Part shown: piece by piece, positions 27,001 to 56,778 of the stretch
Numbering within the stretch: the first letter of the stretch is position 1
How the letters are laid out: each line of letters begins with the position of its first letter
Origin: Asterias amurensis
Taxonomy: Eukaryota > Echinodermata > Asteroidea > Forcipulatida > Asteriidae
Assembly (NCBI RefSeq): GCF_032118995.1
Contig: NC_092656.1
Location: 18,992,965-19,056,964, forward strand
Reading direction: 5' to 3'
DNA length: 64,000 nt
Translations under genes and position numbers: made by a program
The notes under the pieces: generated by a model
The model's input: the letters and a program-made list of their open reading frames with translations, nothing else
What the model was told of the DNA's origin: nothing
Databases searched by the model: none

Positions 27001-30000
27001 CACAGCAGAGAACCAATGCACAACTCAACTCACATATGGCCCCGGCCGGGAATCGAATCGAGGTCACCTTGGTGATAGGCGAGCGCTTTACACACACGCC
27101 AACCATGCCACCAAATTTGATAAGTTGTTATTTTCTTTCTAGGGCAACGTGTGGAAGACTGGCGTTTTGAACAGGATATGTGCCGGTCTTACAGCAGTCC
27201 TTTTATCCCTCAAGAAATGTCCAATGATCCGCTATCAGAACTCGTCTGAGCTCGCAAAGCGATTAGCTGAAAACGTCAAGGTGAGATCTTGAGACATTGA
27301 CCCTTAATTCACATGGGCCCAATTTCATAAACCCTGTGTAAGCACAAAAACTTGCTCAGCACAGAAAAGTATTGCTTAACAGAAACGGGGTACCAGCCAA
27401 AATTCCATAAAGTTTACATTGTTTTGATTGGTGCCCCATTCATTTTTTTGCTTAGAAAAGAAACTTGTTAATGAAATTGGGCCCGGATGTCATCACCTCT
27501 GATAAATCTTGGTTGCACCATTTTGGGATTTATGTTCCTCATGTGTTAACTGTGAATGTGAAGGTGTTGATTTTGATTTTGATTTTGATTACAGCAAGTG
27601 ATATCAAAAGATGCCGGTTTGTTCGACTTCAGACGGACAGATGTGCCACCATTGTTGCTCGTCCTTGATCGTCATAGCGATGCAGTGACTCCCCTCCTTC
27701 ATCAGGTGACTCCATTACTTCCCGTTCTTTATATCATCATTGGCAGATCTTGCTGTAGAATTAAGTCCAGCTCATACTCACTCAACTTTTGATAGAGAAG
27801 CAAATTATAAGAACTTACTCCGCAGTAGTGGAGTTAATAATGAGAAGTCCCCTCTCTCCAATAAGCGAAAGTAGAATGTCTTGGCTAATTTCTTACCTAT
27901 TTTGAATTTGTTGTTTGTGGTATTATTTTTGGATCGAGCCAATACTTGTTAGTGGTGATTTTAAACGATGTTGTGATGTTTGTTAACAGTGGACATACCA
28001 GGCCATGGTGCACGAGTTGCTCGGCATTCGTAATAATCGCATTGACTTGTCCAAAGTACCTGGAATCACCAAAGATCTGCAAGAGGTTGTCTTATCGGCA
28101 GAGCAGGATGAATTCTATGCAGCGGTACGTACAAAGCCTTAGCTTAAAGTCATAACATTAATATCCATCACTAACTCAGTGAAGCTCAAGGCACTTCAAC
28201 TTTCAGTATTTTCTTGCAAGGTGTTGTGGGATACGTATCTTAACCTTGACATGGTTGATTCTGGTATGCCGTACCATCTCCACTTAGACCAGCTGCTACC
28301 CTGGACAATTTTAAATCCAACCTCAAATCCCACCTATTTCAACTTGCATTCTCTCGTTCTTTGCAGTGTTCAGTTTTTGTAAAGCGCATTGAGATTTCTT
28401 CTAGTTATGTTTTGCGCTATATAAGATTGATTATTTGTTATGAATATCGTTATTTGTAGAATGTTTACAACAATTTTGGTGAGATTGGTGGTCGGATCAA
28501 GGAACTGATGGAGGAGTTTCAGCAGAAGAGCCAAAGTACAAAGAAGATTGAATCCATCGCTGACATGAAGGTAAGACGGCATTCATTGTATCTCCATGAA
28601 TGTTTAAGGTGAAAGGTTGGCACTCTTGTGCCGATTTTTATCCTCGCAATATTGCGGCAGAAAAGTGTTGCGATATTTGACATTGTCATCGCTGTTTGAA
28701 CAGAACTGACTTGATAGCTTTTGTGTTTGTAAAGATAGTGGATCTGGTTTTTGACTGGCCACTCTAAATGGACTAAGTCACAAACCTGGTTATTAGCCAG
28801 AGGTCCATTAACAGCCGCCAGCCGCCAACCCGGTCATTACAACGCAGTGAAGAGCGGCTCATCACACTGTTTTTGCTTAATTATTATTCTTTGATGGATC
28901 TTTTCATTAATTTTTTTTCTCAAATGAAAGACTACAACTTCTTTCACTACTTTGTTTAAACTGGACGCATCACTTCGTTAAATCTTGCAGGCCTTTGTTG
29001 AGAACTATCCACAGTTTAAGAAGATGTCTGGAACTGTATCCAAGCACGTGACGGTTGTAGGAGAGTTGTCGAGACTCGTTGGTTCAAACAATCTACTAGA
29101 GGTGTCTGAAGTACAACAAGAGTTAGCTTGCCAGAGTGACCACAATGAGTCCCTGAAGGTAAAGTCAAATGTTGGAAGAAGAAAGAGGAGATAATACTCA
29201 GGGATTAGATAAGACCCAGGGATGACAAATTCGTAATCTTCTTGACAAATCCTCTGCAGAAAATCTTGTTCATGCTTTCATTACATGCCGCCTTGATTTC
29301 TGCAATAGTCTTCTTCTCGGTCTACCTGACTCAGCAATCTCTAAACTACAGCGAGGTTAGAACTCGCCATCCAGATTGGACACAGCACCTTACAAAAGTT
29401 ACAAAGCGCTGTACATAGTTTCTACAATTAAACACAAGTTATAATAACTTAGCTTAGCAAAAAAGCAAATTAGTTTTTTACATGGCTTTGAAGGATTCAA
29501 GAGATGATGCTTAACGGATGTGAAGAGGTAGATTGTTCCATATTATAGGTGTGCTGACTGTGAAAGCTCGTTGGCCGGATCGCGTGTCGGTGTGGGGTAC
29601 ATGCAGGCTCATTTCCATTGTGTTTGTCAAAGATGTTGGTCAATGACGTCATGTGCAATCCATCTATATTTGAACTTTCTTTTGTTAGTAATAGTCCACA
29701 TTTAGGTACAGAGAATTAGATGCCCCATAGCCCACACACAATAGACCCTTCCCATGAAATATGTAAATTGCACATTTTGGAAATATGTAAATTGGTTGGC
29801 AAAATGAGGGAACATCGCGCTGTTTTATACACGGCTAATGGGTGCGTGACGCAGACGTGATTGCACGTCTGCTTAGTGCACAACTCTATGGCGTTTGCCA
29901 ACCAACGGTCTGTACGCATGCGTGAATGTAATTAGAATATTTCATGGGAAGGGTCCATTCACCATTGCTTTGTGATAAATTGCAACCCGTTTTTGTTTAC

Positions 30001-32803
30001 TCTGAGCAGAAGGTACGTGGTCTTGTGATGAGTGATAGAGTGAAAGAGCTTGATGCATGCTGTCTGGTGGCACTGTATGGTCTCCGCTACGAAAGACATA
30101 GTAACAATGACTTCATGACGTTACTGAGCGCGCTCAGCAGGAAGGGAGTCAGTGAAAGAAACAAAAGGGTTTGTAGATCATCTGAACCAATCAGAATGCT
30201 CCTTTATCTACTTGTATATCATCTGGACCAATCAGAAAGCTCCTTTATCTACTTGTATATCATCTGGACCAATCAGAATGCTCCTTTACCTACTGGTATA
30301 TCATCTGAACCAATCAGAATACCCCTTTACCTACTGGTATATCATCTGAACCAATCAGAATACCCCTTTACCTACTGGTATATCATCTGAACCAATCAGA
30401 ATACCCCATTACTTACTGGTATATCATCTGAACCAATCAGAATGCCCCATTACTTACTGGTATATCATCTGAACCAATCAGAATACCCCATTACCTACTC
30501 CTTTTCACATGTCAGAAGGTTGGGCTCTCCAATCTTCGACCTGGCACATAAAAAGAGAAAGTGTCCCAGCGGCAGTCCGTTCGTAAAAAATGAAAAACGT
30601 TAAGAGACGCTTTACTGTTACATGGTTAGAATTACTTCTATGACACAGTTTTTCCATTTTCATGCTGAATGCATCTATCCTAAAGCCCGGTTCATACTTC
30701 CTGCGAATGCGAAAGTGAAGCGAACTTTGGTGATGCAACAATTGGTACGCGCTCCTTTTCCCTTTGTAATGAAATTCGCATCGCACGAAGCATTCGCAGG
30801 ATGTATGAACCGGGCTTTATGCAAAGATGACGAATAACTGTCTCATTTAATTTTCTTGAACCATAATCATCTTGACCCCATCATTTGCAAATCCATGAAC
30901 AATTATATTTTCAATTTCTACCAAAGTTTTGCGCACTATTTGAAAGATGTATTGAAACTCATTCAGTGTTTCTGATGTATATTTTCTTAGTTGGTGAGAG
31001 CTGTAGTGGAGTATGGTGGTGAACGGAGCCGAGGGACGGATCTATTTGGTCAGAATAATCCTATCTCAAGAACGAGGAGGTTCTTCAAGGGACTCAAGGT
31101 ATTATAGAAAGCGAAATAATTTTCTGTAAACTTTGCTAAACATTTACCTGTTTCTGTGGACCGCCTGCAAGTGTGAACCTCCTATTGTCCCTATTTTGTT
31201 TAATACTCTTTAACTTTTTGGCAACAGCTCCCATTGGTTTTGTACACGTTTTCCAACTGTGGACCTTTCCTGAACTGTGGACTCTAGTGTCCCCTTTTGT
31301 TATAGGTCCCCGGTTTGAATGTGTATACCTACTCACCAAGACTGCCTCTAGCTACCAGGCGATCTCAGTTGTCTAGTGGCAAGACATCCACTTTAGAATG
31401 GTAATGGTAGTGGGTTCAAATCCCACTCTAATCTAATAATAAGCCTGTGGATTGTTTCACAGGACTCAGGGGGGGGGGGGGGGGCTGAGTGTGTCGAGTT
31501 TTACACACATCGGTGTGTGGGTAAACCCAAATGATAAAATTTGACTCAAAACTAATTACATAAGACGACAGAACAGTGTTTCTTGATTGTTGATGAACCT
31601 TAAAAAGAGGGTATGGTTTAGTCAGTCTCAACGTAGGTTTTGAAATTTTGGTAATTGTTTTGCTTGTTTATCGTAGGGAGTTGAGAACATCTACACCCAG
31701 CACACACCGTTACTGCAGGAGACATTGGATCAGTTGATTAAGGGGAAACTGAAGGAGGGAAGCTATCCATACCTCGGGCCAAGTCAACTCAAAGACAGGT
31801 GAGTCAATCGTGGCCATGACACCCTACGCAAGCATCTTCTGACAAGTGCCTCCTCTTAACGAATACAGAGTTCTTTACAATATCAGTACTTGGTTGGTCT
31901 GTAAGCAAGGGGGGCTAGTTCCCAGTCTTATTATTGTGAATACTGTTCCGGCTGGTCGTCTTAGAACAGTGCAGTGAGATCAGGTTACAAACAAGTAGGT
32001 TTCTTAAGTTTGTAGGGCTCCCTTCCAAACCTTGCCAGGTGTCTCTGTGTAAATTGATTTTCTTCATGTACTCGAGTTCTTATGTTATTTAGTTCTTATG
32101 AAGTAACCATTTTCATTTTTTTGTTTTCACAGACCGCAGGATATCATCGTGTTCATGGTCGGTGGGATTACATATGAAGAGGCGCTGGCCGTTTATAACA
32201 TCAATAAATCAACTCCAGGTGTGAGGATCGTCCTTGGTGGAACCACAGTACACAACTCACAGACGTAAGTTTCCTCATAATATTGACGTTCAGACTCAAG
32301 ACTAGCATTGACACGCCATAAACTCGTCTCCCAATTAAGGGATAGCACACAATTGGGTTTGTCACCAGAGCAGATGTCTTTATTGGGGTGTTGTGGCTAA
32401 GCGGATAAGAGCACCGAACTCAAGGCTCTGATGCTTCTGTTCAGCAGAGTGTGGGTTCAAGTCCCGGTCATGACACTTTGTGTCCCTGAGCAAGACACTT
32501 AACTATAATTGCTTCTCTCTACCCAGGGGTAAATGGGTACCTGTGAGGGCAGAGATGGATCTTGTGATTGAAAAATATTAATTTTGAAAAACATTATTAA
32601 TGGAAAAACAAGTGGGTTTTGAGGTTGGATTACAATGAAAACAGGGATTGTTTGTGACATAGTTTTAAGACAGAGAGTGTTCCCGTTATCCATAGAGGTT
32701 TATGACTAAAAGTTAAATCAAAGCAGGCAGTTTAAAGTATTTGTGTGGTTTCATTTTGAACAGGTACCTTGAAGAGGTTGCCATGGCTCAGCATATGTCA
32801 TGA
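24046..32803 (+). CDS. VPS45: Vacuolar protein sorting-associated protein 45 (Sec1/Munc18 family)
   Basis: Fifteen exons: 24046-24138, 24721-24855, 25416-25476, 25947-26026, 26528-26596, 27143-27280, 27595-27705, 27990-28124, 28460-28570, 28991-29158, 30010-30168, 30991-31098, 31677-31798, 32133-32264 and 32764-32803. All junctions are GT-AG and phases close to 553 residues (human 570). Diagnostic stretches are [20 protein letters not shown] at the start, [67 protein letters not shown], the very conserved [39 protein letters not shown] and [17 protein letters not shown]45 binds TLG2/syntaxin-16-type SNAREs and acts in TGN-endosome and endosomal fusion. The C-terminus after LEEV is shorter than in human. 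A second ATG lies one codon upstream at 24043; the 24046 start matches homologs. A 41-bp minisatellite follows exon 11 directly. The identification is firm. Confidence 0.97.
24521..24655. mobile_element. Small MITE in VPS45 intron 1
   Basis: TAGACCCAGTAACTGGGACG at the left pairs with its complement near 24633-24655, and the arms continue through GTACTCCTTTT and AAAATTTTGA. A fragment of the same family is near 43978-44012. Confidence 0.7.
25625..25895 (+). repeat. Dispersed repeat, likely SINE-like
   Basis: The motifs GGTTTTCCCTGGAA/TTTCCCTGGAAGAATTCTCT and TTGGGTTTTTC recur at 42360-42420, so this is a dispersed repeat. Its class is uncertain. Confidence 0.4.
26235..26358. mobile_element. 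Short inverted-repeat element (MITE)
   Basis: GACGCTAGGTGGCAGCAGAC...CCAGGTAAA pairs with TTTACCTGG...GTCTGCTGCCACC. It lies in VPS45 intron 4, directly beside the LINE fragment at 26375. Confidence 0.7.
26375..26475 (-). mobile_element. LINE fragment paralogous to 20990-21779
   Basis: ATGAGTGTACGCCAAAACTT and GAGTGAATTCCAGTCTTTTG match the sequences flanking the MITE at 21045-21429, here without any insert. Confidence 0.7.
26825..27120 (-). repeat. tRNA-like SINE, separate family
   Basis: The minus strand reads GGCATGGTTGGCGTGTGTGT, then GCTCGCCTATCACC and a B-box-like GATTCGATTCCCGG, as in a tRNA-derived head. It ends 20 bp before VPS45 exon 6. Confidence 0.55.
27316..27485. mobile_element. 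MITE, family C copy 3
   Basis: GGGCCCAATTTCATAAACCC and TTAATGAAATTGGGCCC bound a short interior with GCTTAACAGAAACGGGGTAC. Confidence 0.7.
28165..28450 (+). mobile_element. LINE 3'-end fragment (L2/CR1-like)
   Basis: It encodes the pieces [19 protein letters not shown] and a tail with AAAGCGCATTGAGATTTCTT...GCGCTATATAAGA, as in CR1/L2-type 3' ends. It is a remnant in VPS45 intron 8. Confidence 0.65.
29238..29372 (+). mobile_element. LINE reverse-transcriptase fragment
   Basis: The frame gives [20 protein letters not shown] followed by DSAISKLQR, a standard late-RT segment of L2/CR1-type LINEs. It is a remnant in VPS45 intron 10. Confidence 0.75.
29741..29958. mobile_element. MITE with AATAGACCCTTCCCATGAAA ends
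   Basis: AATAGACCCTTCCCATGAAA at 29740 pairs with TTTCATGGGAAGGGTCCATT ending at about 29959. It ends about 50 bp before VPS45 exon 11. Confidence 0.75.
30177..30499 (+). repeat. 41-bp minisatellite, 8 copies
   Basis: Units start at 30177, 30218, 30259, 30300, 30341, 30382, 30423 and 30464 (the last is partial). Each begins ATCATCTGAACCAATCAGAA and ends near ACTGGTAT. The array starts 9 bp after the last base of VPS45 exon 11. Each unit carries a CCAAT box. Confidence 0.95.
30681..30819. mobile_element. Small MITE, CCTGCGAATGCGA family
   Basis: TAAAGCCCGGTTCATACTTC pairs with the complement ending GAACCGGGCTTTA; the arms continue into CTGCGAATGCGA. Fragments occur at 3072-3180 and 43197-43345, and possibly near 43665. 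Confidence 0.8.
31335..31490 (+). repeat. tRNA-like SINE and poly-G tract
   Basis: CTGCCTCTAGCTACCAGGC, then GTCTAGTGGCAAGACATCCA and a B-box-like GTGGGTTCAAATCCCAC. It resembles 49975-50095, and a run of about 17 G ends it near 31486. Confidence 0.6.
32388..32572 (+). repeat. SINE, subfamily 2, with tRNA-Leu-like head
   Basis: It runs GTTGTGGCTAAGCGGATAAG, AGCACCGAACTCAAGGCTCT, a B box GGGTTCAAGTCCCGG, and then the body CAAGACACTTAACTATAATT and GGGTAAATGGGTACCTGTGA. It is truncated relative to 38640-39003. Confidence 0.8.
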
Positions 32804-44924: not shown

Positions 44925-45343
44925 TTTGCCGGTGAAAAATTAACGGTTGTGTTAAATACCGCCCTCTTACGTGTGGACTGCTGCTTTATGATTGGTCTGT
45001 TGCGCGTAAGTTAATAACCAAGCTTTATGATTGGTCTGTTGCGCGCAAGTTAAATAACCAAGCTTTATGATTGGTCTGTTGCGCGTAAGTTAATAGACAG
45101 GTATGAAGCGCCCTCTGTGTGGGAACAGACGGGAGGTTGCGTGCAACCAACCAATCAAAGTTCAAGGAAAGGAAGTTGCGCGTAACAGACCAATCATAAA
45201 GCTTGGTTATTTAACTTACGCGCAACAGACCAATCATAAAGCTTGGTTATTTAACTTACGCGCAACAGACCAATCAAAAAGCAGCAGTTGTCCACACGTA
45301 AGAGGGCGGTATTTAACACAACCGTTAATTTTTCACCTGCAAA
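44925..45343. repeat. Large inverted repeat with CCAAT boxes
   Basis: The left arm (about 44925-45094) is near-complementary to the right arm (about 45175-45343), with an 80-bp spacer. Outer ends are TTTGCCGGTGAAAAATTAAC and its complement. Each arm holds about three 40-47-bp units with TTATGATTGGTCTGTTGCGC, each with an inverted CCAAT box. It lies between ADPGK and metaxin. Confidence 0.9.
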
Positions 45344-45532
45344 CAAAATGCCACCGTCAGCTAGCTTCAGCATCTCTCACGCTATGAAACTCCGGCTCAT
45401 AATGAACACTAAACTAAGAGGGCGGTATTTAACACAACCGTTAATTTTTCACCTGCAAACAAAATGCCACCGTCAGCTAGCTTTAGCATCTCTCACGCTA
45501 TGAAACTCCGGCTCATAATGAACACTAAACTT
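45299..45532 (+). repeat. 117-bp tandem duplication upstream of metaxin
   Basis: Units 45299-45415 and 45416-45532 are nearly identical, both starting TAAGAGGGCGGTATTTAACA. The first unit overlaps the end of the palindrome. Each carries an ATG (AAAATGCCACCG) that could form an upstream ORF if transcribed. Confidence 0.92.
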
Positions 45533-45865: not shown

Positions 45866-48800
45866 ATGGCGGACTCCAGTAATCAACGCAACGAGGCGAC
45901 GAATGGAGGCCAGATTGCGATGGAACTGAACTGTTTAAAAGGCGACTGGGGTATACCTTCTGTAGACAGAAAGTGCCTGAATATTTTGGTATGAAAATAT
46001 CACTCATTTTGTTTAATTATAGATTATTCAACACAGAGCAATCAATCAACCACATGCACACACACTCACACTAAGTTGACTAAGTTATGACTAAGTCACT
46101 AGTGTGTGAATGAGTGAATGGGACGAAAAACGCTGGCATTCTTTATTATTAATTTAAGCGCATAAAATACATTCAATTCACCCGTGCACTACGGACCCGG
46201 TGCAAAGTGTCCGGGGAAAGTTTCCGGATAAGTTTCCGTATGGCGCCACCACCTTTTCCATTCTAAGTTACCTCACTCGATCAAACAATGAAAAAAAAAA
46301 ATAATAATGTTCCCTTTTTGTAAAAATTTGTGAAAATGGGGGTACCAATGGAAAAGGGGTGGCATCATAGTATTCATACGGAAAGTTATCCAAAAAAAAT
46401 GGATTAGCGTCAGATGAGATATTCATTGGGTAAAAATGAATTAAAAAGTGGTGGCAGGATAGTTTCCGTATGGCACCACCACTTTTTCATTGGTATGATT
46501 TATGAAATAATATAGTCTTGGATATAGTATCTAATTTACCTCAATGACTATCCCTTTTTGTAAAAGAAAAGAGTGAACAAGTGGGGGCGCCATACAGAAA
46601 GTTATTGGAATTCTAATCCAAAGTAAAGATAGATTTATTATTATTATTTTTTTTTTTTTGACAGACATATGGACAGTTTGCAGGTGCATCCCTGAAAGTA
46701 AAGAACAATGGAAATTTGTGGAGAAACCCGTCAGGTATAGCCATCAATTCTTTTCATTCAACTTATTTTTTGTTGGTTGTCTTTTCCTTCTTCTTTTCTT
46801 GTTTTAATATACATAAAGTGTGATCACAGTCGACTCACATTATTAGTTTCCTCCGTCAGGCCATTTCCCAGTTTTCCGAGCTGCCCAAGAGGTCCTGAAG
46901 TCAGACACTCAAGTTATAAAGTACTTCCAAGACAACCAGTTGGATCTAGATGAAGAATTGACGGACCAACAGAGGGCAGATGTCCTGGCGTTTCAGGCAT
47001 TGATGGAAGAGAAATTTCTACCTGGATTGGTAAGGTTTAAAAACCATTTAACTGTATGACCTTTCATATGATTATGGTTTTACCCAGAGGTCATGGACGC
47101 TGGTGCCCTGGTCTTGGCCTTGGTGCCCCTCCAAACATTTTCTGTAGTCTTTACATTTTTTCGATGAAAGTGCCCTGTGCAAAATTACAGTGGCCTTGCC
47201 CTCTCAAAGATAAATTCCAGCTTGAGTAATGTACTTACTATTATATGCAGCATGCAATTTAAAGTTTTCATCAATGGCAATGAATGCACACATCCAAAAA
47301 TCATTGACGTTTTTATATTTCATTGTTCACAGCTTCATGTGTGGTGGATAGATGCTAAAAACTATGTCGAATTTACAAGGCCTTGGTACGCAAAAGCTCT
47401 CCAGTTCCCTTTGAATTACTTCATCCCTGGACGATGGCATCGAGAAGCGGAGCTTAGAGTGGAGGAGACAAGGGGAGGCAGCCACATGGAGCCACAAGAA
47501 GTCACCAACAGAGTAAGTGTTGAAAAGATACAGAAAACAGGAATGAGAAATTTCACACTTTTTAGCTGAATTCAGACTTTTTTTGTGTGTACCTCATAAA
47601 CAGAAAATGCCGTATTTTTTCTCAAAATAAAAACAAGTCATGTTCTTTGATCTACCTTTCTTGTGCTGAGGACACTGCTCCCAGAAGCTCCTTGGAATCT
47701 ATAACTCCAGGGGTTGCCAAAATTAAAAAGATTAAAATTTTATCACTTTAAAAGAACACGTTGCCTTGGATCGAACGAGTTGGTCTATAAAAAGCATTTG
47801 TAACCGTTTGTTATAAAATGCATATGTTTGGAAAGATGTAGAATACAGTGATCCACACTAATTTGCCTCGAAATTGCGTGGTTTTCCTTTTACTTTGCGA
47901 ACTAACACGGTCGGCCATTTATGGGAGTCAAAAACTTGTAAAAGGAAAACCGTGCAATTTCGAGGCAAACTTGTGTGGGTCATTGTATTCTACTTTTACA
48001 TCATCTTTCTAACCAATGCATTTTATAACAAATGGTTACAAACGCTTTTCAAAGACCAACTCGACTGATCCAAGGCAACGTGTTCCTTTAATGTACCTCC
48101 TTAGATCTGGATCACAGTTCCAGACTTCTTTGTCATCACTGACTCTCATCCCTGACATGTGCTGAGATTTTATACTTAATTATAAAACTCAGTGATTTTA
48201 AATTGTCTCATTTTTGTCAAGGTTCTCCCCAGGTTTTTTTTCAAAACTGGGGGCATTCTGGACCTCCATTTTTTAGATTTGACCGAAGGATGCTGAATTG
48301 AAACAAAGTCTTTGGAATGTTTTCTACTTTGTGTTTATCTTGGTGTTAAAAGCCCTACTTGGCAATCTGGAGCATTCTATATGACTTCTCTTGATTTTTG
48401 TGTGAAAATGTTTCTTACTATTGTTTATTTTGCGGTATCAGCCAAAATTTGTACGTATTAGCATGTAATTGCGTCATCGGCTCGATACGCTAATGTAGCT
48501 TGTGCATGTGGAGAAAGTCTCTGTTGAAAACTCATTTTTTGTTTAAAGCTGCTTATTTGTACCTTTCTCTCTTTGCATTTTTAATGTTCTCTTTATGCGC
48601 TTAGAGGCTTTTTGCATTAGGCGCTTTACAAACGTCTTCTTGTTATTATTATTTGTCTTTGATCAACTTCTTATGATGTTGAGTTCTTCCTTCTCTATTG
48701 ATAGGTATGCAGTGATGCTAAGGAATGTTTGAATCTCCTCTCTGTCAGACTTGGAGAAGAAGACTTCTTCTTTGGTAAAGTGTAAGTACCAGAGTTGTTC

Positions 48801-50545
48801 GAGATGAAACAAATTCAATTTGGGAAGTGGAGGTCTTAACTGAGTAGCTAATGCATACTACAATACTTACCATCACTGGTCAATGAACCTTTTGCGAGTT
48901 AGATTTGTATAATGTGTGGTACAATGAATTGCTCAGTTGCAATTGACTGCCTTAATTTGAATTCCTGAGACTAAAGACAGTTGCTATAGCACATGGTTCG
49001 GGCAAGCTTTTGTATAGCAACTTGCAGACGAGCAAACCTGTAAAACTCTGTGGATAGTGGATGATACCCATGCCTACATCATTTGTGTGAAGGGGACAAC
49101 CCTGTGTCAACCCCAGGAGTAGCTTGCAATGTGCCCCTGGTGACATTTAAGTGTAGCCCTCAACTTGAAGTGGCCGTCCGTTGCCTTGTGATGTTAGGCA
49201 ATTACTCATAAATAAATAAAAGTAATAAAATAATACAATTTCAAATTAATCAATTATTCCAGCTTTGCAATCTCTTCATTGGCTTCCTATTCATTCTCGC
49301 ATCATCTTCAAAATTCTCCTTTAAACATTTCAATGCAGTCGTGGAAGGGGACCAACTTACCTGAAAGATCTACTAACTCCATACACTCCTACTAGAAACC
49401 TCCGTTCTGCTAACAAAGACACCCTCGTTATTCCTAAAGTTGCCACCAAAGCATATGGTCAACGTAGTTATCAGTTTGCTGCTCCTCACTTATGGAACAA
49501 TCTCCCTCTACACATCAGACAAGCCACCACGATCTCAAGTTTCAAGACTCTTCTCAAAACATATCTATTCAAATCTTCATATACTTAATTATTCTTTTGT
49601 TTTCCTCTGAGCGCTTAGAGACTTTCTTTTGGAGGTGTTAGGCGCTATAGAAATACGGTTGTTATTATTATTATTATAATCAGCAAAGTGTATTATTGTG
49701 TTTCAGACCTACATCTTTAGATGCTTTGATATTTAGCTACATCGCTCCATTACTACGAGCACCACTCCCTAGCAACCAACTTCAGATGCATCTTAAAGGA
49801 GCAGACAACCTTTGTAGTTTCTGCTCTCGCATCTTGTTGAGGTACTTCCCTGAGGAACCCCAAGGTAAAATCAAATTGTTGTATGTTTTTTAAGTAAATA
49901 GAGTTATTAATTTTGGTTTTACTGTATGTTCAGTACTTTCCCGAGCTTTGAGAAGAATTAACAGGCATACTACTCGGGTGGGACTGAACCCACGACCAAA
50001 ATTGCCTGGTAGCTAGAGGCAGCTCGAATCCTATATTTGAGCAGCCAATCGAACTGCCTCTAGCTACAAGGCAATCTTGGTGGTCTAGTAGATCTGAAAG
50101 ATCTATTCTTTAAAAAATAAAAATTTTAGTAAAATTCTCAGCCGGTAAAATATTTGAGGATTTGAGATTTGCAGTCTTGTGGAGTTTTACCTTGATTTCG
50201 ATCCCTATTTTGGTTTGGTCAATTTTGTCTGTAAACACACAAACCAAACAGTGCACTCCTATAGTGTCCTAGTTATCTCAAAGTTGTTGTGCTGCCATCA
50301 GTGATTTCCAAATTTGTTTCTTTGTTTCACCCACAGGTACCCAGCAATCTACCTCCAAGACGTCAACGGACGATTCCTTTGACGACCCACACAAGAGACG
50401 CAATCAGGTGCTGGCTGCTCTATTTGCATTGACAGCCATGGTTAGCTATGCATTCATGAATGGTCTGGTCAGATTACAGGTAACGGACTCTGGTGATGGA
50501 GGAATCGAACTTGAATATGAAGAGGAAGACGATAAACCAAATTAG
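45866..50545 (+). CDS. MTX1: Metaxin-1-like mitochondrial outer-membrane protein
   Basis: Seven exons: 45866-45988, 46665-46734, 46860-47029, 47333-47512, 48705-48781, 49707-49864 and 50337-50545. Junctions are GT-AG and phases close to 328 residues (human MTX1 about 317). The N-terminal GST-like half has MELNCLKGDWGIPSVD, TYGQFAGASLKV and LAFQALMEEKFLPGL, followed by WWIDAKNYVEFTRPWYA, PFPLNYFIPGR, SDAKECLNLLSVRLGEEDFF and PTSLDALIFSYIAPLL. Residues 284-304 (VLAALFALTAMVSYAFMNGL) form a C-terminal tail anchor before an acidic tail. The tail anchor favours MTX1 over MTX3. The family acts with SAM50/MTX2 in beta-barrel protein import and mitochondrial architecture. The last coding segment is triplicated just downstream. 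A possible AATAAA lies at 51509. The identification as a metaxin is firm; 1 versus 3 is less so. Confidence 0.94.
46226..46600. repeat. Compound copy of the CCACCACTTTTTCA repeat
   Basis: TTTCCGTATGGCGCCACCAC occurs twice in direct orientation and its complement (GTGGGGGCGCCATACAGAAA, AAAAGTGGTGGCAGGATAG) also occurs. This suggests two or more inverted-repeat copies side by side in metaxin intron 1. Compare 22060-22355. Confidence 0.6.
47086..47215 (+). repeat. Dispersed repeat, GGCACCAAGGC family
   Basis: CTTGGCCTTGGTGCCCCTCC and GATGAAAGTGCCCTGTGCAA match 61219-61390 and the inverted copy at 10726-10925. Confidence 0.55.
47748..48091. mobile_element. TTAA MITE, family B copy 2
   Basis: TTAAAAGAACACGTTGCCTT and AAGGCAACGTGTTCCTTTAA bound a palindromic interior around GGCCATTTATGGGAGTC. 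It lies in metaxin intron 4. Confidence 0.85.
48520..48662 (+). mobile_element. LINE 3' tail fragment
   Basis: GCGCTTAGAGGCTTTTTGCA followed by AGGCGCTTTACAAACG and (TTA)n is the L2/CR1-style 3' tail, also seen at 49600-49679. Confidence 0.6.
49258..49679 (+). mobile_element. L2/CR1-like LINE 3' end
   Basis: It encodes the late RT/C-terminal signature LHWLPIHSRIIFKILL, then [40 protein letters not shown] and SFKTLLKTYLFKS. This is followed by a 3' UTR with GTTAGGCGCTATAGAAATAC and a (TTA)n tail. It is 5'-truncated with one early frame interruption, in metaxin intron 5, and ends 28 bp before exon 6. Confidence 0.88.
49975..50095. repeat. tRNA-like inverted repeat
   Basis: GCCTGGTAGCTAGAGGCAG and CTGCCTCTAGCTACAAGGC are inverted around 50 bp. 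The flank GGGACTGAACCCAC resembles a tRNA T arm on the minus strand. It is related to 31335-31435. Confidence 0.55.
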
Positions 50546-50970
50546 AATATGGAGACAAAAAACATTTAAAACAACCTTAACCCACAATCTATCGCAAGGT
50601 TTTGTTTGAGATAGATCCTGTACCCAAAAATGGTCTGGTCAGATTACAGATAACGGACTCTAGTGATGGAGGAATCGAACTTGAATATGAAGAGGAAGAC
50701 GATAAACCAAATTAGAATATGGAGACAGAAAAACATCTAAAACAACCTTAACCCACAATCTATCGCAAGGTTTTGTTTGAGATAGATCCTGTACCCAAAA
50801 ATGGTCTGGTCAGATTACAGATAACGGACTCTAGTGATGGAGGAATCGAACTTGAATATGAAGAGGAAGACGATAAACCGAATTAGAATATGGAGACAAA
50901 AAACATTTAAAACAACCTTAACCCACAATCTATCGCAAGGTTTTGTTTGAGATAGATCCTGTACCCAAAA
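50461..50970 (+). repeat. Three tandem copies of the metaxin 3' coding end
   Basis: Units of about 170 bp are at 50461-50630, 50631-50801 and 50802-50970. Each carries the last 28 codons and stop of metaxin plus the start of the 3' UTR. Units 2 and 3 share changes that unit 1 lacks (CAGATAACGG for CAGGTAACGG; Gly to Ser), and their reading frame is intact. Only unit 1 is needed for the predicted CDS. Confidence 0.95.
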
Positions 50971-52618
50971 CCACCTGAATATTGAGACAAGGTACACCAA
51001 CTGCCTTATACCTAATGGAGGGATACTGTCAGCTAAAAGTGCTTCCATTTGTGAGCATAAAGAGATTTTAGATAAAACTGTAACAAGTTGCTTTCAATTT
51101 GCAACCTATCGTAAAACTAAACAGCTTTTAAAAGGTGTCCTTGCCTCGAGCAATTCAGTGTATAAAACTCTGACTGTTGACCGGCTGTAAGCAACAACTG
51201 TTTCTGTCATTTGCCAGTGACGGCCAATTCAACCGAAACAATTATTGGTCACGACCGCGAAAATTATATTGACAATTTATTATTAAATAAGGTTATAAAC
51301 TAGGGCCCTTTTACTGTCAGTGAGTTGTCCCGCCCAACTACCTCTCGCCATGAAGTCCAAGAGGATAAAACTTGAATGAAAAATGTAATAATTTTGAGGA
51401 TGTGTATTTGGAAGAAGTGGGCTGAATCGAAGAACGAAAAACATTTTTTTCCTTTTTTTCTAATTGATAATTCTGTTAAAACGCATAGCAAGACGTCCCA
51501 TCTGGGCCAAATAAATGTATAGTTCTCATGTTGTGTTTCTTGAACATTAAAACAAATTTGGAATCAAATTTCAAATTAATTTAATATCAAAGTGGTCTGT
51601 GTTTTTTCTCAATGATATGAACACCCTGCTGTTCTAGTAACTGGTACTCCGATTATCTACTCCACGGCAGTAGAATAAAGCAAGACAGTTCCCTAAGAAC
51701 AACTCTACCTGGCAAGTAGATACACACATGGTGTTACCCCAAACCAAATATATATTGATACCCACCATGCAATGCCTCAAATCCTATAACTGGTACTTTC
51801 TATTTCCTTTTGTTATTGGATACCTTACTCCCTTCCAGTGATGGTTATTCGCCTAAAGATGTGGGTGACGTCTTAAGGACACTTGAACGATGGGCCATTT
51901 TTAATAAGATGTTCAGCTATTGTATTGTGTTTTTCTTACACACAAAGAACAAAAGGAAAACTGAAATCCTAAATGATGCCCGCCCAAGCCCCTCCCCCAA
52001 ATGCTGTCCCTAATCAAAATATTCCATTCTAGACTGATTTGAGACCCCAAGAAAAGGCATACATTGTAAAAAATTTGCCCTATTGTGAACTGCGGAACGT
52101 TGACTTTCAACTTGAGATATTTTGGATGACATGACACAAGCACTGAAAAAATAGTTTCTATTTGCCGGGAGGTGCAGGGATATTTTTTAAGATTAATGCT
52201 CAGACGTTTGTAAAATTATAACGGGTACTTTTATTTGAATGGTGAATAACTTACTGGGCACTGAGACTTTCCATGTTAAATTGAACAGAGGATTGAAGGT
52301 CAAGAGGCAATGAATCAATCTCTTTTTACTTTATTTTTCTTCTTTACTCTATTTTTCGTTTATTTTTGAATATTTGTTTGTTTGCACTGTATGCTTTGGG
52401 AGTTTATTTAGTGGGGTGCACCACCCAGAACCCGCCCACTTTCAATGCACTATTGCTGCAGTGCGCCCTCAATCGACACTTGTGAACCAGCATTTTGTGA
52501 ACATAATACATGTAATATCGTACGTGCACTTCTGCACATATCAACACTGTTACTGTCATCGGAACTCCAAATTTAGTTGTTGTTTTTGGGGGTAAGAAGA
52601 GAATGTGAATTAGCAACA
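50971..52618. other. Metaxin 3' flank and MCEE upstream region
   Basis: Candidate polyadenylation hexamer AATAAA at 51509. About 650 bp upstream of the MCEE ATG is low-feature sequence with no clear promoter motif. I see no gene. Confidence 0.4.
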
Positions 52619-56094: not shown

Positions 56095-56242
56095 ATTTTG
56101 TAATATTTTGATGTGCTTTTCATTAAAAAACATCAAAAAAATTATGGCTAGGTTAGGTCAAATAGTGTGATATGTTTCCTGCTTTTAGAGGGTGTGACCA
56201 TAGATTACCTCTGTCCTTACTCTATGGTGTGACATAGCAGGA

Positions 56243-56778
56243 AAGTGCCTTTATTTCATGGAGAAGAGATACAAGGTGGACAAGCTGTGCATATCTTTAC
56301 TTGTTCAGATGCTTCTTATAGTACAAACAAAACAGGAACAATGAACCTTAAAACCTACTTAAAAGAGTTGACAAGTTTGTGATGTAAGAATCTCTGAAGA
56401 GTTACATAACTTTGAAACTAGGACTACAGATTCCTGAACAACTCTCCCTGATTCTGTAAGTTTCCTTAAAAATAAACCAATCTTTCCATGTTCTGATGAG
56501 CAAATTAGGGAAGTGCCTTTATTTCATGGAGAAGAGATACAAGGTTGACAAGCTGTGCATATCTTTACTTGTTCAGATGCTTCTTATAGTACAAACAAAA
56601 CAGGAACAATGAACCTTAAAACCTACTTAAAAGAGTTGACAAGTTTGTGATGTAAGAATCTCTGAAGAGTTACATAACTTTGAAACTAGGACTACAGATT
56701 CCTGAACAACTCTCCCTGATTCTGTAAGTTTCCTTAAAAATAAACCAATCTTTCCATGTTCTGATGAGCAAATTAAAA
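56243..56778 (+). repeat. 268-bp tandem duplication
   Basis: Units at 56243-56510 and 56511-56778 differ at very few positions (for example ACAAGGTGGAC versus ACAAGGTTGAC). Both begin AAGTGCCTTTATTTCATGGA. I see no coding function. It lies downstream of MCEE exon 4, presumably in its last intron. Confidence 0.95.

Follow-up and report, generated by a model that had tools for sequence, protein, structure and literature searches.

The tail of a metaxin gene is present three times in tandem, and this array is most likely a recent duplication that is essentially neutral. Gene and array lie in the window, by which we mean the whole 64-kb stretch of DNA that was analyzed (C9:18992965-19056964); genome-wide searches covered 491.5 Mb in 23 contigs. 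We propose that a 170-bp segment starting inside the last metaxin exon and ending in the 3' flank was duplicated and that one copy was then duplicated again, presumably in this order. The extra copies would have become 3' untranslated sequence, probably carried along in the transcript. With the stop codon inside the segment, copy 1 is enough to complete the normal protein, and it would be their youth that has left copies 2 and 3 with frame and stop intact. A recent origin is suggested by the copies themselves: any two are separated by 2 or 3 substitutions and by no more than one internal indel over 170 bp. Changes in the coding-homologous part are not fewer than elsewhere, similar arrays are frequent in a genome sample, two more arrays with 99% match are found in the window, and the RNA fold is unremarkable, all of which speaks for a duplication that is both young and neutral.

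The metaxin gene and its repeated tail

The protein encoded by the seven exons (Table 1) matched the Pfam families Tom37 (E = 9.5e-32; 110.4 bits), GST_C_6 (E = 1.2e-21; 76.7 bits) and GST_N_4 (E = 8.2e-16; 59 bits), compared with curated cut-offs of 25.1, 28 and 30 bits, respectively. Judged by these domains, the gene is a metaxin, that is, it belongs to the Tom37/SAM37-related outer-membrane import proteins. An alternative acceptor of exon 5 at 48723 would give a product of 322 amino acids. When solved structures were searched by sequence, weak matches alone were obtained, none at E ≤ 0.001; the top match was the glutathione transferase StyI (E = 0.0027), and chains of Tom37/Sam37 came next (E = 0.0028 to 0.034). 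Tom37 was found at two places in the genome, both of them exons of this same gene, and GST_C_6 likewise at two, one exon of the metaxin gene and one place on C5. A C-terminal membrane anchor is typical of metaxin 1, and inspection of the translation by eye revealed the hydrophobic stretch VLAALFALTAMVSYAFMNGLV just before the tail. The normal tail is encoded by copy 1 of the array, where the 328-amino-acid protein is completed.

Table 1. Features of the metaxin gene and its tail array (positions in the window)
Feature	Position	Strand	Remarks
Metaxin coding span	45866..50545	+	7 exons, 328 amino acids; joining of the exons gives a single open frame
Metaxin exon 1	45866-45988	+	
Metaxin exon 2	46665-46734	+	
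Metaxin exon 3	46860-47029	+	
Metaxin exon 4	47333-47512	+	
Metaxin exon 5	48705-48781	+	
Metaxin exon 6	49707-49864	+	
Metaxin exon 7	50337-50545	+	
Repeat copy 1	50459..50628	+	170 bp; last 28 metaxin codons, stop and 83 bp beyond
Repeat copy 2	50629..50799	+	171 bp, one inserted base; AGAT replaces AGGT
Repeat copy 3	50800..50970	+	AGAT replaces AGGT
Hypothetical intron	50480..50649	+	One repeat unit, copy-1 donor to weak copy-2 acceptor; alternative end 50820
First AATAAA past the metaxin stop	51510..51515	+	Pattern scan

The initial annotation had described the last 28 codons plus stop as triplicated at about 170 bp, and this was confirmed. Tandem Repeats Finder reported an array at 50459-50970 (period 170, 3.0 copies, 97% matches, score 987), and the anchor ATGGTCTGGTCAGATTACAG was found at 50460, 50630 and 50801, that is, at a spacing of 170 bp and then, because of the one-base insertion in copy 2, of 171 bp. 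The unit thus comprises the end of the coding sequence and, past the stop, about 83 bp of flanking DNA, with copies 2 and 3 downstream of the copy-1 stop. Over the 28 codons preceding the stop, the C terminus reads NGLVRLQVTDSGDGGIELEYEEEDDKPN in copy 1 and NGLVRLQITDSSDGGIELEYEEEDDKPN in copies 2 and 3. Alignment and translation also bore out that the extra copies keep frame and stop and share changes lacking in copy 1; these are GTA/ATA (V/I) and GGT/AGT (G/S), both G/A differences at first codon positions. Private to copy 2 are one inserted G and one T/C difference, both past the stop, and private to copy 3 is one synonymous A/G difference. Copies 1 and 3 are separated by 3 substitutions. 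Copy 2 differs from copy 1 by 3 substitutions and from copy 3 by 2, with 1 indel in each case; the final base of copy 3 was not counted. A dispersed repeat was ruled out, since the 510-bp array matched a single place in the genome in a search that skips very common words.

Frame, stop and transcript of the extra copies

In the initial annotation, the kept frame of the extra copies was taken as a possible reflection of use or simply of youth. Youth is the likelier reading; the frame is no signal of use, since three random substitutions would conserve it, with the stop, in about 77% of cases. The coding-homologous part has 3 substituted sites, 2 of them missense, and the remainder has 1 substitution and 1 indel. 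In the 87 coding bases of copy 2, 22 of the 261 possible single changes create or destroy a stop. With three substitutions placed at random, frame and stop are preserved with a probability of about 0.77, and we therefore did not accept the kept frame as evidence of use. A single random indel spares the coding part with a probability of 0.49, and with this term the kept frame is unremarkable, yet not certain by chance. Nothing in these counts points to constraint on the extra copies at the protein level, but the counts are too small to exclude it. Read-through of the stop into copy 2 was rejected, since the frame past the copy-1 stop hits the next stop after seven codons. Separate translation of the copy-2 or copy-3 tail was also rejected; the upstream frame hits TAA after 16 codons and has no ATG.

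A pattern scan past the metaxin stop found ATTAAA at 51282 and, further on, the first AATAAA, which would put copies 2 and 3 inside the 3' untranslated region (3' UTR). If the repeated 3' UTR segments altered the stability or localization of the metaxin mRNA, the array might be a selected regulatory change, and this would fit with both extra copies lying past the stop but ahead of the AATAAA. We consider this extremely improbable: the RNA fold of the repeat unit (copy 1) was unremarkable (z = 1.23), by which a structured RNA element in copy 1 was rejected, and regulation explains nothing beyond what youth explains.

Splice signals and known tandem-duplication introns

The array could also be an incipient intron, in which the copy-1 AGGT serves as the donor and the AG of copy 2 or 3 as the acceptor, so that one or two units are removed in some transcripts and an ITDSSDGG tail and a shorter 3' UTR result. 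We regard this as unlikely, and the two ends of the candidate intron speak differently. CAGGTAACG at 50477-50485 in copy 1 reads CAG/GTAACG, with the junction at 50479/50480; the AGGT in a duplicated exonic segment that marks tandem-duplication introns is thus present in copy 1, and copies 2 and 3 read AGAT. By generic matrices, this site scored 4.01, compared with -0.35 to 3.75 for the donors of the six real metaxin introns, and 229 of 20,230 sampled GTs scored as high. The claim of a good donor in copy 1 therefore stands, and it argues against pure neutrality insofar as occasional splicing is possible.

The acceptors argue the other way. By the same generic matrices, the candidates at 50650 and 50821 scored -1.58, below all six real metaxin acceptors (-0.07 to 9.68), and 15% of the sampled AGs (2,924 of 19,018) were as good; pyrimidines occupy 8 of 16 positions, compared with 9 to 14 at the real sites. 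By this measure they are poor acceptors. The acceptor-like AG noted in the initial annotation does exist, but it does not distinguish the extra copies, since TTACAG is found in all three copies; what sets the extra copies apart at this site is the missing donor GT, not the AG. The branch-point consensus is YTNAY, and no match to it was found within 70 nt ahead of either candidate acceptor; matches are present for five of the six real acceptors (in one case the sole match is 8 nt from the junction), so that one real acceptor does without as well. Four other AGs precede the first candidate junction, at distances of 9 to 53 nt.

Translation bore out that splicing of copy 1 to copy 2 or 3 would keep the frame and give the ITDSSDGG tail. 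The junctions given there as 50480->50651 and 50480->50822 become 50479/50650 and 50479/50821, a difference of convention by one base. The predicted products would carry I for V and S for G and otherwise match the normal protein. That the frame is kept speaks for the splice reading, whereas a tail altered by just two conservative residues speaks against it. The junction would fall 66 nt before the new stop, which lies in the last exon, so that nonsense-mediated decay would not be expected.

The unit-length geometry and the AGGT fit the tandem-duplication model as presented in PMC4974935 and PMC3443670. In the cases described in PMC4974935, ATP2A1/ATP2A2 and Schizosaccharomyces SPOG_01682 and SOCG_00815, as in metaxin, an AGGT-bearing exonic segment was tandemly duplicated, and an upstream-copy donor with a downstream-copy acceptor would remove whole units with the frame kept. 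For those genes EST or experimental support is described, whereas splicing of the metaxin array is predicted from the DNA; in addition, its segment spans the stop codon and its copies 2 and 3 carry AGAT instead of AGGT. The geometry also fits the dual-specific splice sites described for UBC and VCX3A (PMC10809524), with an AGGT in the unit and a candidate intron of one or two units. For UBC, splicing of units is described there as shown by RT-PCR, whereas the metaxin array is a candidate with a GT in copy 1 only; VCX3A is, to the knowledge of the authors of that paper, the only such intermediate with a spliceosomal intron. Like the ordinary small tandem duplications whose origin by break repair was studied in PMC8355091, the metaxin copies are arranged head to tail and share, by eye, at most one base at the copy-copy junction, but the class described there is below 100 bp, whereas the metaxin unit has 170 bp and three copies. 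Among the titles listed for metaxin, tandem-duplication intron gain and sea star genomes, none dealt with this locus, and none was listed for metaxin in sea stars.

The array may thus work like a tandem-duplication intron but cannot be filed as one. That it is a natural intermediate of intron birth, with low-level splicing from the copy-1 AGGT to copy 2 or 3 that is possibly polymorphic in the population, has little probability in our view. If it were true, an intron would be arising across a stop codon, from a duplication that costs the protein nothing, and spliced and unspliced RNAs would give nearly the same product. Spliced even weakly, the array would be a rare case in which an intermediate stage of intron creation can be seen; unspliced, it is an ordinary one of many young tandem duplications. 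Of the initial reading, the duplication, the changes common to copies 2 and 3 and the in-frame splice product hold; the kept frame carries little weight, the acceptors are poor by the matrices used, and splice use is a candidate function predicted from the DNA. At most, the array could be raw material for a new intron; the normal protein is intact. That duplications spanning a stop cost the protein nothing suggests that terminal exons may be permissive start sites for new introns.

Tandem arrays elsewhere in the genome

To determine the frequency of such arrays, one 10-kb stretch was sampled from each of contigs 1 to 17, at the 5-Mb mark (17 stretches, 170 kb in total). This sample contained 13 rows with a period of at least 80, those in one stretch overlapping one another; a match of 95% or more was reached by 4 rows, which cover 1,869 of the 170,000 sampled bases (1.1%). 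The 64-kb window had 4 such rows, 3 with at least 95% match, the metaxin tail array among them. From the sample, a rate of 23.5 per Mb or about 11,600 arrays genome-wide was calculated, a rough value from only four arrays (95% range, 3,150 to 29,600). Similar arrays, with 4 in 170 kb, are therefore common in this genome. Assuming 20,000 to 25,000 genes, 220 to 275 stop codons would be expected inside such arrays by chance, before selection; a duplication across a stop codon keeps the upstream frame whole and should not be purged by selection at the protein level.

AGGT was present in 817 of 1,972 sampled 170-mers and a donor scoring at least 4.0 in 209 of them, both strands being counted apart. 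When the nested row was dropped, the units of the remaining 12 sampled arrays contained AGGT on the plus strand in 7 cases and on the minus strand in 3. Duplication will therefore often produce a splice option with this geometry as a by-product, though less often one with a donor as good as that of copy 1.

Further arrays were observed in the window. Two copies of a 116-bp unit (99% match) lie just upstream of metaxin at 45299-45531, and two copies of a 268-bp unit (99% match) lie downstream at 56239-56775. A 41-bp unit is repeated eight times (95% match) at 30173-30499, partly within the open frame 29932-30390 (+). Two arrays of ~40-bp units in opposite orientation, with ATTGG/CCAAT within the units, occupy 44983-45282, some 580 to 880 bp ahead of the start codon of metaxin; they could fold into a hairpin or provide CCAAT boxes.

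Near-identical copies could also result if a single or double copy had been expanded during assembly, and C5 has a possible artefact of this kind in its identical 4,341-bp mitochondrial stretches, unless these are a real nuclear insertion. For the metaxin tail we hold an assembly artefact to be very unlikely, since the private changes in copies 2 and 3 are not made by simple reuse of one read, and similar arrays were found in the genome sample. The preferred reading is still the young, neutral duplication.

The mitochondrial stretches on C5, a nuclear contig, are at 657374-661714 (L003) and 673794-678134 (L004), with their COX1 matches 16,420 bp apart. The comparison covered these two stretches, which are 97.3% identical to the mitochondrial contig. 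Either mitochondrial DNA of nearly full length was inserted there in tandem, or a divergent mitochondrial genome was misassembled. The mitochondrial contig itself is contig 23 (16,427 bp); its gene order, together with the presence of 22 other contigs, fits a sea star. COX1 was recognized in it by its Pfam family, and the other genes were assigned by eye from open frames, with code 9 chosen for translation; ND1-like and ND2-like frames are on the strand opposite COX1.
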